The position numbers and the translations under genes were made by a program. Below the pieces are notes generated by a model. It searched no databases, was not told the origin of the DNA, and saw only the letters and a program-made list of their open reading frames with translations. 64,000 nucleotides of DNA, taken from the NCBI RefSeq assembly GCF_007860095.1, contig NZ_SJPT01000002.1, positions 248,001-312,000 on the forward strand. The letters are read 5' to 3'. Each line of letters begins with the position of its first letter. Position 1 is the first letter of the stretch. The stretch comes from Novipirellula galeiformis. Its GTDB lineage: Bacteria > Planctomycetota > Planctomycetia > Pirellulales > Pirellulaceae. Below, piece after piece: positions 12,879 to 38,003 of this stretch.

Positions 12879-13784
12879 CTAGCGAGATGGCAACGCGTCT
12901 CGGACCCGTTGGGCAATCGTTTGAAGCAACTCTGCGGGCAACACGCCTTGTTTTGCCGCGGCGATGTTCTCCGCAAGATGGCGGGCGTTACAGGTTCCCA
13001 CGATGGCGGTATGGCAATGGGGATGGGACAGCGTGTAACGCAAAATCAATTCCGCTCGCGTCATTGATGCAGGTAAGACTTCATCAAGTTTTGCTCGTTC
13101 CCAAATGTCGTCGAGCGCCGGGCGTTTGATTTCGGCGTCGGGACCGCCGTGTGCGATCCCCCCGCGAAGAATGATTCCCGCGCCGTTGTTCGCCGCTTCG
13201 CTGATCACGTCATGGTGCTCCGGTGCGAGCGCCGAATAGGGCAACTGGAACGTATCGAAAACGCCCAGTTTCATCAGCTTCAACATTTCAGGAAGTTTGG
13301 TCGAAACGCCGAGGAAGCGAATCATGCCTTGCGTTTGAAATCGCACTAATTGTTCGATCAATCCTTCACGTTGGAGCGTTTCCGCATCGCCACCATGGAA
13401 TTGCAGTAAATCAAGGTGACCGGTCTGCAAACGAGCGAGACTCTTTTCGAGGTTTCGCTCGATCACCTCCTTATTCCAGTGGTGCTCAATCTGCAGATGG
13501 TCGTCGTGTTGGGTATAGACGCAACCACATTTGCTTGCCAAGAAATATTCGGATCGCCGCGCACCGAGGTAGCGTCCAATCCGCTCTTCGCTGAGACCGT
13601 AATCGGGGGCCGTGTCGATGAAGTTGATTCCTGAATCGAGCACCTGATGGAGGATGGACTCCGCATCCTGTTCGCTGACGTCACGTACACCCCACGTTTT
13701 GGGGCCGCGGATTCCCATGCTTCCGTAGCCGAGTTGAGTGACTTCGATTCCGGTACGGCCAAGTTTTCGTGTGGGTAAGTTCAT
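12879..13784 (-). CDS. Aldo/keto reductase
   Basis: A 301-residue NADPH-dependent aldo/keto reductase. The ATG at 13784 (MNLPTRKLGRTGIEVTQLGYGSMGI) matches the family start; upstream codons are not homologous. Family marks: INFIDTAPDYGLSEERIGRYL (Asp and the catalytic Tyr), LASKCGC at the catalytic Lys, LLQFHGGD at the His, FQLPYSALAP, and a C-terminal HTAIVGTCNARHLAENI for cofactor phosphate binding. The substrate cannot be predicted. It starts 80 bp after the queG stop on the same strand and may be co-transcribed with it. Confidence 0.9.
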   Translation of the reverse strand: MNLPTRKLGRTGIEVTQLGYGSMGIRGPKTWGVRDVSEQDAESILHQVLDSGINFIDTAPDYGLSEERIGRYLGARRSEYFLASKCGCVYTQHDDHLQIEHHWNKEVIERNLEKSLARLQTGHLDLLQFHGGDAETLQREGLIEQLVRFQTQGMIRFLGVSTKLPEMLKLMKLGVFDTFQLPYSALAPEHHDVISEAANNGAGIILRGGIAHGGPDAEIKRPALDDIWERAKLDEVLPASMTRAELILRYTLSHPHCHTAIVGTCNARHLAENIAAAKQGVLPAELLQTIAQRVRDALPSR

Positions 13785-35166: not shown

Positions 35167-35967
35167 TCAGGCCCCCCGCAGAACCAGGGCCACGGTGGCA
35201 ATGCCTGCCGGAATGCACCACCATGCGAACCAGTGCAGACGGTCCAATCGGCTCCATCCGATCAACCACTTGAGGGCCACGATCCCGACGACGAAAGAGA
35301 CCGCCGCGCCCACCATTAGCAGTCCCGGGGTGAATCCCATTTCGGGGGTGGTCAGTGACGAGGCAGCCTCGCTCGAGCGTGCCTCGATAAAACTCTTTAG
35401 TTCCAGCACGACGGCGCCGCAAATCGCGGGGATCGCCAGTAAAAACGAGAATGTGACGGAATCCTCGCGTTTTAAGCCTAGCAATCGGGCTCCTAGAATG
35501 GTCGACCCGCTGCGGCTAATCCCCGGCAGGATTGCAAAGGCTTGGAAGCATCCAATCAGCAAAGCGTTGACGATGCTCATCTCTTGATACTTGCCGTCGC
35601 GAGGACGTAATCGCCCGAGAATGACCAAGAAGATTCCTGTTACGATTAGCATTGCTCCGGCGAGCAAGGGGGATCTCATAATCCATTCAAAGTTCCTCTT
35701 GATCGTCAAACCGACAATCGCGGCTGGGATGGTGCCCACGATTAACATCGAGATGACCCGGCGATCGCTGAACAACAGATCGAGAATTCGCCGCCAATAA
35801 ACGACCAAAATCGAGCCCAAGGTGCCCGCGTGTAGAACAATCTCGAGCGTGGGCGATTCGCTAAGCTTTCCCGTCAATGCCCCCAGAACGACCAAATGCC
35901 CTGACGAACTGATGGGCAGAAACTCGGCGATCCCTTGAACAATGGCGAGAAAAAGAATCTGTAACAC
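35167..35967 (-). CDS. uppP: Undecaprenyl-diphosphatase
   Basis: UppP (BacA) dephosphorylates undecaprenyl pyrophosphate at the outer face of the cytoplasmic membrane, regenerating the lipid carrier for peptidoglycan and polysaccharide synthesis. The 266-residue membrane protein has both conserved motifs: QGIAEFLPISSSGHLVVLG, with the catalytic Glu and Ser, and PGISRSGSTILGARLLGLKRE, with the active-site Arg. Multiple membrane helices run to the C-terminus. It starts with GTG at 35967 and is divergent from a DUF368 gene that probably translocates the product. Confidence 0.95.
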   Translation of the reverse strand: MLQILFLAIVQGIAEFLPISSSGHLVVLGALTGKLSESPTLEIVLHAGTLGSILVVYWRRILDLLFSDRRVISMLIVGTIPAAIVGLTIKRNFEWIMRSPLLAGAMLIVTGIFLVILGRLRPRDGKYQEMSIVNALLIGCFQAFAILPGISRSGSTILGARLLGLKREDSVTFSFLLAIPAICGAVVLELKSFIEARSSEAASSLTTPEMGFTPGLLMVGAAVSFVVGIVALKWLIGWSRLDRLHWFAWWCIPAGIATVALVLRGA

Positions 35968-36156
35968 GGGTTGGTTGATCCTGAGGCAATGTCGGACGAA
36001 GCTAGCGGCGGGCTCGGAGGGCGATCCCTACGGGGAAGCCCTATGGGTTTTAGGTTGACAACCCGAGTTGTGGAAGAGGCATGCCCCCGGGTAGAAAAAC
36101 GGATTATAGCGGTCGCTTTGTACTCTGCGACAACCTTGTGACTTAGGAAAGCTTTC

Positions 36157-37212
36157 ATGCATCGCGTCGATGACCCCATAGCCAATTCGCCCGAACGTGT
36201 TCCCAGTCGGAGCGAAGCGGAGTCGCTCGCCTTAGTTCAAGCGAACCGATCATGGACGCGGGATTCGAATCCGTCCATTGCGGGCGATTTGATCAATGGG
36301 CTACGGGGCTTTTGTATGGGAGCGGCCGATACCGTTCCGGGCGTCAGCGGGGGCACGGTCGCATTGGTGCTCGGTCACTACCAACGCTTGGTGACATCCA
36401 TCTCGCGATTCGACTCGCATTTCTTGTCGCTCGTGATCCAGTGGAAGCTGCGTGACGCGGCGCGTTACATCGACTTCCGTTTTTTGGCGGCCTTGGGAAT
36501 CGGAATCGCCACGGGGATCGTTTCTTTAGCGGGAGTGATGCACTGGTTGCTCGATCACAAACAACCCGAAACGTATGCGGTGTTCTTTGGTTTGATCCTG
36601 GCAAGCATTTGGATCGTCAAAAACTACGTTAGCCAGTGGCGGTTGCCCCAAGCGATTGCCTGTGGCCTTGGAATCGGGGCCGCGGTTGCGGTGACGTGTT
36701 TGCCCATGGGCAGCGGCGACATGAGCTTGCCATTCTTGTTCTTAAGCGCGTCGGTTGCGATTTGTGCCATGATCCTGCCGGGCATTAGTGGCGCGTTTGT
36801 GTTGCTTTTATTTGGGGTGTATCATCCGGTGACAGGTTTGATCAAAGACGCCGTTCGTGGCAATTTCACGCTCGAATCGCTGTCACAGATTGGCGTCTTT
36901 ATCGCTGGATGCGCCTTTGGGCTGCTGGCGTTCTCGCGGTTGTTGCATTGGTTTTTAGAGCATCATCGCAGCACCACCATGGCAGCCTTGATCGGATTGA
37001 TGATCGGTAGTGTGGGGAAACTGTGGCCGCTGCAACAACCCACACCTGAGACGGCGCAGTTGGAGGCGAAGTTTCGTCAGATGGAATTTGTGCCCGCCGG
37101 CGAGTGGCCCGGAAGTCTACTGATGCTCGTCGGGTTGGCGGTGGCCGCCGTTGTCGCTGTGATTGTGGTTGAAAGCATCGCTAATAAAGTCGATAGCAAC
37201 GATCCAGCCTAG
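36157..37212 (+). CDS. DUF368 protein, PopT-type polyprenyl-phosphate translocase
   Basis: 351 residues, polytopic membrane protein of DUF368. The signature FCMGAADTVPGVSGGTVALVLG near residue 50 and the second copy SVAICAMILPGISGAFVLLLFGVYHPV near 205 show the internal duplication of the family. DUF368 members (PopT) recycle undecaprenyl phosphate to the cytoplasmic face, a role known from work on other bacteria. Here it is divergent from uppP (189 bp apart), which makes the same substrate, supporting that role. The ~45-residue N-terminal extension is cytoplasmic and not conserved. Start ATG 36157. Confidence 0.88.
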   Translation: MHRVDDPIANSPERVPSRSEAESLALVQANRSWTRDSNPSIAGDLINGLRGFCMGAADTVPGVSGGTVALVLGHYQRLVTSISRFDSHFLSLVIQWKLRDAARYIDFRFLAALGIGIATGIVSLAGVMHWLLDHKQPETYAVFFGLILASIWIVKNYVSQWRLPQAIACGLGIGAAVAVTCLPMGSGDMSLPFLFLSASVAICAMILPGISGAFVLLLFGVYHPVTGLIKDAVRGNFTLESLSQIGVFIAGCAFGLLAFSRLLHWFLEHHRSTTMAALIGLMIGSVGKLWPLQQPTPETAQLEAKFRQMEFVPAGEWPGSLLMLVGLAVAAVVAVIVVESIANKVDSNDPA

Positions 37213-37480: not shown

Positions 37481-37528
37481 AAAAAAAATCCCGCCTGTCG
37501 AGCCGCACAGGGCGACTCAACAGACGGG
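37481..37528 (-). terminator. Intrinsic terminator, minus strand
   Basis: Stem of nine pairs: 37520-37528 (ACAGACGGG on plus) with 37490-37498 (CCCGCCTGT). The central mismatch on the plus strand becomes a G-U pair on the minus strand. Eight T follow (37488-37481). No minus-strand gene except the tiny ORF lies within 600 bp upstream. Confidence 0.75.
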
Positions 37529-37591
37529 CGTGTCTCGCAGTACCATCACGGAGATGATCGCGAGTGGGGTGGCTGCGCCGAAGCATCAGCC
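37481..37591 (-). ncRNA. Candidate structured RNA, three hairpins and U8 tail
   Basis: Read on the minus strand, three hairpins follow one another: a stem GGCTG/CAGCC capped by GC-TTCG-GC, a stable UUCG tetraloop (37591-37571); CTCGC/GCGAG enclosing ATCA/TGAT (37564-37534); and a 9-bp GC-rich stem (37528-37490) with one pair that forms only as G-U in minus-strand RNA, followed by A and U8. It lies directly after a tiny ORF, so it could be an independent small RNA or that ORF's 3' region. No known RNA family was recognised. Confidence 0.5.
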
Positions 37592-37604
37592 CGCCGACTT
37601 CTAA

Positions 37605-37745
37605 CTACGGGTTACCACCCCGTTGGCAAGTACAGCAATAATCCACTTGATCACCTCCTTTCACAAACTTGTTTGACGATTTCAATCCGGGTGCCAACCA
37701 GAGAGGATCAAAGATCGTACGGAAAGTTTCGTTGCGACGCGTCAT
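37605..37745 (-). CDS. Candidate small Cys-rich peptide, 46 aa (or 13 aa from internal start)
   Basis: An ATG at 37745 opens 46 codons ending in KGGDQVDYCCTCQRGGNP. Inside it, AAAGGAGGTGATC (37649-37661) is complementary to the 16S 3' tail, and an in-frame GTG seven bases later (37646) would yield the 13-residue peptide MDYCCTCQRGGNP. Such a near-perfect ribosome site is unique in the window. Hairpins and a terminator follow. Alternatives are a Cys-codon leader peptide, a RiPP-like precursor, a small structural peptide, or no coding at all. No homologue is known to me. Confidence 0.35.
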   Translation of the reverse strand: MTRRNETFRTIFDPLWLAPGLKSSNKFVKGGDQVDYCCTCQRGGNP

Positions 37746-38003
37746 CGCAACACGGTATCCCCATTATCGCTAGCAACCAAAATGGAAGCAAGTAATTCTG
37801 AGGCTATTTTTCTAGACGAAGCAACCCTGCCCGCGGTTCGCAGATGGCAGGAAAATTTTTGGAAAAGTTTCGTGGTGCCAGCGGACTGGGCCTTTGAGAC
37901 CGACACGCTCGTCAAGCATCGTGTCTCGCCCCCCCGTCCCCGACGCTAAATGCCGGTGCTGAATGCCGGTGCGGTTTACTCGCACTGGGAACGCACGTCG
38001 GAC
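37746..38003. other. Intergenic, upstream of the small minus-strand locus
   Basis: Should contain the promoter of the tiny ORF/RNA (minus strand), but no clear -35/-10 pair was found. A GAATGCCGGTGC-like duplication (ATGCCGGTGCTGA and ATGCCGGTGCGGT) lies at about 37949-37975. Confidence 0.35.

Follow-up and report, generated by a model that had tools for sequence, protein, structure and literature searches.

A conserved candidate small mRNA with an extended Shine-Dalgarno sequence and a 13-codon reading frame in Novipirellula galeiformis

Here we ask what is encoded by a minus-strand locus of Novipirellula galeiformis in which a near-perfect ribosome-binding site, a very short reading frame and a series of RNA hairpins ending in a terminator stand in an otherwise gene-free stretch of ~990 bp. 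The locus lies in a 64,000-nt stretch of contig NZ_SJPT01000002.1 (hereafter the window), and the extent of the surrounding gap given in a preliminary description of that window was borne out. The unit itself is larger than first described: it occupies positions 37791-37481 of the minus strand, with its upstream edge at ~37791, and consists of a promoter, a 5′ hairpin, an extended Shine-Dalgarno (SD) sequence, a 13-codon ORF, hairpins and a terminator. Its sequence and that of its relatives suggest to us an autonomous small mRNA of ~275 nt whose function would be ribosome engagement and brief translation more than the supply of a defined peptide, a reading to which we give a probability of about 0.5.

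The frame by which the locus was initially recognised, a 46-codon ORF (37745-37605, minus strand) ending VDYCCTCQRGGNP, is present in the sequence, but it is not the gene. An in-frame stop interrupts its 33-codon extension before the true start in 76 of 139 elements from related genomes, the same stops mean that the 46-residue peptide is not conserved, and its ATG falls within the conserved 5′ RNA hairpin. The gene is the 13-codon frame that runs from a GTG at 37646 to a TAG (37605-37646, minus strand) and shares the VDYCCTCQRGGNP end. The internal ribosome site with its in-frame GTG, previously estimated to match the anti-SD over ~13 bases, was found to extend to 14 nt when compared with the organism's own 16S rRNA: the SD sequence GAAAGGAGGTGATC (37649-37662, minus strand) is the exact Watson-Crick complement of the 16S 3′ end of this genome, and its GGAGG lies 7 nt from the GTG.

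Complementarity of this length invites the explanation that the locus is an antisense fragment of 16S rRNA or a chance string, since its 14 letters are precisely the complement of the 16S end. The sequence AAAGGAGGTGATC occurs three times in the 7.4 Mb genome, once in the element and twice antisense to 16S ends. Against this explanation, identity to the 16S antisense stops at 14 nt, the window has no Rfam match, 162 of the 199 family genomes retain the element and its stems covary, and we rejected it as almost certainly wrong. Within the window, a scan for the 14-mer with up to two mismatches gave three matches, compared with a mean of 0.43 after shuffling, and only the match at the element is exact. 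Elsewhere in the window, AAGGAGGTGATC at 13461-13472 (minus strand) lies inside an apparent coding stretch with no start codon in place and is probably due to chance. Among 141 distinct elements, complementarity to 16S reaches at least 12 nt in 97, whereas control stretches reach at most 8 nt; it reaches at least 16 nt in three, as measured against the 16S tail of the window's own genome.

Upstream of the frame, a sigma-70-like promoter is predicted ~11 nt before the 5′ hairpin, on the basis of the sequence and of promoter scores in relatives. Its −35 box is TTGCTT (37786-37791, minus strand) and its −10 box GATAAT (37763-37768, minus strand), separated by a 17 nt spacer, and transcription would be expected to start near 37757. 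The two boxes match 8 of 12 consensus positions, and a simple scan of the window that required 9 of 12 thus returned none at this place. Across 130 relatives with a hairpin, the best promoter score ahead of the hairpin averages 7.89, against 5.68 in a control of one single-letter shuffle per element. The 5′ hairpin that follows (37730-37752, minus strand) has 9 bp and a GACGC loop; of 139 elements, 119 have a hairpin with an ACG[CT] loop, compared with a mean of 17.3 and a maximum of 24 in shuffles that keep single-letter content only, and its arms vary widely among relatives with the pairing retained.

The UUCG-capped hairpin, second stem-loop and U8 terminator listed in the preliminary description are all there, and we define two further pairings beside them. 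An outer stem (37566-37621, minus strand) joins GGGGTGG within the ORF (37621-37615) to CCACCCC (37572-37566), the strand beyond HP1. Hairpin X (37587-37600, minus strand) forms just past the stop codon, pairing 37600-37596 with 37591-37587 around a GGCG loop, and the hairpin HP1 (37571-37591, minus strand), which carries the UUCG loop in the window, pairs 37591-37587 with 37575-37571. The 5′ arm of HP1 is therefore common to hairpin X, and the two are mutually exclusive. Downstream lies HP2 (CTCGC...GCGAG; 37534-37564, minus strand), with an anti-SD word, GATCATCTCC, at 37559-37550, and then the intrinsic terminator (37481-37528, minus strand), a stem of 17 pairs at 37528-37490 followed by the U8 tract at 37488-37481. 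The terminator is GC-rich, as stated earlier; where a single central G-U pair had been reported, the sequence reads three. Read forwards, 119 of 139 elements have a terminator-like stem; read backwards, 21 do. The RNA from 37700 to 37481 folds better than all of 200 shuffles (z −3.6), and the predicted full transcript gives a z of −4.6 against shuffles. The lowest-energy fold predicted for this RNA closes the SD sequence and start codon: GGAGGUGAUC and GAUCAUCUCC form 10 bp, and AGUGG, from the start region, pairs with CCACU.

An initial DNA search matched 13 genomes in a set of 40 relatives that includes the organism's own; 12 of the 13 show the element and the remaining one looks like chance. 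The covariance search among relatives that had been suggested as a check gave a positive result. A covariance model (R1) built from eight sequences, with E-values that are rough, finds the element in 162 of the family's 199 genomes (six of the 162 being seeds of the model) and in 51 of 68 genera, and 157 of these 162 matches have an E-value of 1e-6 or better; the weakest, at E 0.013, may be due to chance, and 37 of the 199 genomes have no match to the model. Each matching genome of the family has a single match, except three (G015, G057 and G130). The two matches in G130 score equally and both lie at contig ends (C12 41-141 and C14 211454-211554), perhaps one place assembled twice. A search of 294 genomes across the phylum gave matches in 22, comprising four from the family, 16 from a second family, f18, and two from other families; none of the 20 misses listed for that search, which had 252 further misses, is a genome of the same class. 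Rfam returned no match for the window element at E-values up to 1, and in the literature that we searched, which was covered in part, we recognised no description of it. For the comparisons below, forms of the element were sought at 173 loci (L074-L192, which come from the scan of named-species genomes described below, being left out), of which 167 matched and six did not; the ORF was recovered from 165 of the 167, giving the 141 distinct elements, and in the remaining two a similar ORF falls beyond the limits set in the script. Two of the 141, L072 and L073, are forms from other families.

Compensatory changes in the stems, named in advance as evidence that would support the element, were found among the relatives. 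In alignment A4 (100 elements thinned by hand, with covariation counted irrespective of relatedness), 94.6% of stem cells are paired, 10 of 11 pairs have changed on both sides, and there are 50 double-change cells compared with 12.1 after shuffling. The excess is seen in each stem: 35 cells against 9.3 in the outer stem, which pairs ORF codons 8-11, 25 against 5.0 in hairpin X and 19 against 4.0 in HP1. Because A4 was fitted to a seed model, it favours the outer stem and upper HP1 but not hairpin X, whose inner three pairs hold in at least 95 of the 100 elements and whose outer two hold in 63-69. Two other measures did not exceed shuffling for these hairpins: for the number of pair types, 255 of 500 shuffles were as high for hairpin X and 58 of 500 for HP1, and for the number of pairs with double changes the corresponding figures were 25 and 57 of 500. 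When RNAalifold was run alone on A4, the inner pairs were all that it retained of hairpin X. As for the alignments themselves, a first automatic one gave a poor consensus fold and misaligned L008 and L011; the seed alignment A3 holds eight sequences without these two, has a hand-drawn structure and displays no covariation by itself.

The signals for translation are conserved. The start codon is GTG in 133 of the 141 elements and TTG in eight, the distance from GGAGG to the start is 7 nt in 121, and the ORF has exactly 13 codons in 117, with an overall range of 11-16. Of the 24 ORFs of other length, 19 stay in frame, three (L204, L240 and L246) are shifted and two are the forms from other families. 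L204 (genome G071) is one letter longer in the SD region and one shorter in the ORF and thus reads a different frame, which may reflect decay, variation or sequencing error. The stop codon is TAG in 76, TAA in 37 and TGA in 28 elements, and TGG never occupies its position, whereas independent variation of the last two letters would lead one to expect 15.1 cases.

The two halves of the peptide behave differently. Across 31 independent, non-overlapping pairs of elements, codons 2-7 carry four synonymous and 23 non-synonymous single changes, with 6.2 synonymous changes expected in the absence of selection, and by this comparison the peptide is unconstrained as protein in its first half. Codons 8-13 carry 23 synonymous and 11 non-synonymous changes, with 11.1 synonymous expected (binomial 3e-5), and on the same comparison the second half is constrained, either as protein or via RNA pairing. 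Among the 117 peptides of 13 residues, Cys5 is found in 106, always encoded by TGT and never by TGC, Ser7, where serine occurs, is always encoded by AGC, and Gly10 is found in 115. The fixed TGT and AGC codons look like a constraint on the RNA. The CCTC peptide that had been proposed as a conserved feature stands in so far as the short peptide is kept in outline; its Cys4 appears in just 55 of the 117.

These data bear directly on the reading in which the locus is a functional peptide gene, V-x-x-x-C-T-S-Q-R-G-G-x-x, with the RNA structure merely tuning its translation. The retention of start, stop and frame, the near-invariance of Gly10 and Cys5, and the excess of synonymous changes in codons 8-13 (23 against 11.1 expected) all agree with it. 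However, codons 2-7 are free of amino-acid constraint, and codons 8-11 are paired in the RNA and undergo compensatory changes that alter amino acids (at pair 85-217, for example, GC is found in 86 elements and AU in seven). Furthermore, unrelated peptides stand behind the same kind of SD sequence in other families of the phylum and in Alphaproteobacteria. We therefore regard a peptide gene as rather unlikely. Since start, stop, frame and length are all kept while codons 2-7 are free to change, it seems to be translation that is selected more than the peptide.

A short ORF followed by alternative hairpins and a terminator in series is also the arrangement of leader-peptide attenuators, in which the ribosome on the short ORF decides between hairpins; a ribosome on the ORF of this element would likewise choose a hairpin. 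In the attenuator class a conserved gene must follow on the same strand, and here the element differs. The downstream frame (36157-37212, plus strand) is convergent with it, and when neighbouring proteins of at least 90 aa were clustered across 21 loci, each of 18 kb, none of the clusters was shared by more than four. An attenuator of a downstream gene was rejected on these grounds and is very improbable, in keeping with the earlier remark that there is nothing downstream to attenuate and that a stand-alone RNA or peptide is to be preferred. The more specific suggestion of a Cys-codon leader fails likewise, given the low frequency of Cys4, the missing downstream gene and the free amino acids of codons 2-7. 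A RiPP-like precursor, a further proposal, would call for conserved maturation genes nearby and was discarded because no neighbour (ORFs of at least 90 aa) recurs in more than four of the 21 loci. By prediction, the transcript stands alone with its own promoter and terminator, and the combination of no recurrent neighbour and a convergent downstream frame implies that the unit acts in trans or on itself. Two membrane-protein frames of 351 aa and 266 aa adjoin the element in the window (35167-37212), presumably a DUF368-like and an undecaprenyl-diphosphatase-like protein, and the same two are found beside it, in differing orientation, in 3 of the 21 loci, including L204 and L207.

Action in trans could take the form of a regulatory sRNA whose anti-SD loop masks the ribosome sites of other mRNAs, with the ORF secondary. 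The stand-alone unit would suit this, as would the word GATCAYC or ATCACC, which is present in 57 of 139 elements compared with 3.4% of dinucleotide shuffles. In contrast, the remaining 82 elements have no anti-SD word, and the conservation of start, stop and frame would be needless, all of which makes a trans-acting sRNA an improbable account. A related idea, that a downstream anti-SD locks the SD sequence throughout the family, was not supported. Pairing of the SD sequence with its own downstream stretch averages 18.8, compared with 17.6 for exchanged SDs and 16.0 for shuffled stretches; closing exceeds 0.5 in 49 of 135 elements against 29.4% of shuffles, which is not clearly above the control, and the spacer pairs no better than expected by chance with the letters that precede GATCA (p 0.21 and 0.99). 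Modelled folds suggest that such a lock is confined, at most, to some members, the window element included.

For the autonomous small mRNA that we favour, the anatomy suggests the following mechanism. The long SD duplex would capture 30S subunits, and the 13 codons would then be translated. A ribosome at the stop codon would cover one arm of each of two structures, the ORF arm in the outer stem and the 5′ arm in hairpin X, allowing HP1 to form; on RNA without a ribosome, the outer stem and hairpin X would re-form. In some members, that of the window among them, the anti-SD region of HP2 may in addition pair with the SD sequence and start codon, closing the site. Such an RNA would read out the supply of ribosomes, and its output in trans would be its fold, its lifetime or an exposed anti-SD loop. 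Whatever its mode of action, the element would amount to a missed core gene, present in most genomes of the family and usually once, absent from Rfam and too short for the usual gene finders. It bears on whether tiny ORFs serve cells as sensors of ribosomes, a question to which sequence comparison contributes a case in which selection appears to act on translation but not on the peptide's first half.

The closest known systems are the rreB/rreR small mRNAs of Alphaproteobacteria, which Hahn et al. reportedly described in 2017 as having an extended SD sequence, a GTG start and an ORF of 14 or 18 codons. An extended SD sequence in this class has 16 nt or more (16-17) of complementarity to the 16S 3′ end. 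Our element is alike in having an extended SD sequence, a GTG start (or, in a few relatives, TTG), a short ORF of 11-16 codons, well under the ~30 that bound the class, and a stand-alone small mRNA; it differs in that complementarity in the window extends over 14 nt, short of the 16 nt of the class, and would differ also in peptide, RNA structure and phylum. When R1 was run on 33 chosen loci from alphaproteobacteria and other lineages, scores were at most 27.8 bits (L136, E 2.5e-4), apart from L299, which is the same place as L072 and scores 39.2 bits, and many of the matches span little beyond the SD sequence and start (16-19 bits). The kind is known from Alphaproteobacteria, and this element is a separate variant of it with its own anatomy. 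By sequence it resembles the alphaproteobacterial small mRNAs in design, and common descent may or may not extend beyond the SD sequence.

The design recurs well outside the family. A scan of genomes of named species for GAAAGGAGGTGATCCAGTG found at least 119 stretches; among the 80 matches listed, almost all belong by title to Alphaproteobacteria or unassigned Proteobacteria, the others being two Phycisphaerales, one Nitrosomonadales and one Deltaproteobacteria. Of these 80, 79 open a frame of 11-33 codons and one (L094) a frame of 57; the listed loci have 18 codons in Rhodobacterales, 14 in Bradyrhizobium and ~25 in many others, and the lengths in Bradyrhizobium and Rhodobacterales fit the rreB/rreR mRNAs of Hahn and colleagues. 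Eight genomes, six proteobacterial by title and two of Phycisphaerales, have one extended-SD site each, as do nine of 150 genomes sampled from L083's phylum. In the window's own phylum, the looser pattern AAGGAGGTGRTCNNGTG is found in 22 of 246 genomes, compared with six for a backward control. Six of the 22 belong to the family or to f18. In each of the remaining 16 the site opens a different frame, usually of 9-19 codons; those of L293 (41 codons) and L298 (26 codons) may be chance matches. The loci L294-L297, L299-L303 and L310-L314, from other families of the phylum, each have an extended SD sequence followed by their own ORF of 9-19 codons, and several of these ORFs end alike (RRWLST, RRLSS, RRCLSS, RRCLT and RRCLA), unlike the QRGG type.

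Such comparisons carry the extended-SD small-mRNA idea beyond Alphaproteobacteria. They also allow a wider and still doubtful proposal: a cross-phylum class of single-copy, translation-operated RNAs that would sense ribosome supply, in which the ribosome and not the peptide might be the working part. Its members would share a design of near-maximal SD pairing, by which 30S subunits are captured, and two alternative folds, with a peptide largely dispensable and swapped between lineages. A further motif, Rhodopirellula-1, is listed for Proteobacteria and Planctomycetes without an Rfam accession, and rated ambiguous as an RNA and probably cis-regulatory (PMC2864571). By this description it may or may not be identical with our element.

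Among Rfam families, the Caulobacter sRNA CC2171 (RF01867) is similar in having the same SD sequence and GTG at the same place in its model, together with a terminator, and differs in that the Rfam structure joins its start region to the 3′ end, unlike that of the window element. The CC2171 model has no match in the window element (E up to 1) and finds the elements of relatives weakly, the best being L006 (31 bits, E 5.4e-5 in 351 nt); its 75-bit cut-off was reached in none of the 20 genomes searched. Of eight loci submitted to Rfam, L083 (88.3 bits) and L112 (91.5 bits) pass that cut-off, and both have 25-codon ORFs. Rfam files CC2171 as an sRNA; in the alphaproteobacterial loci L083, L112 and L109 a frame of 21-25 codons stands behind an extended SD sequence, and the CC2171 family may itself be a small mRNA.
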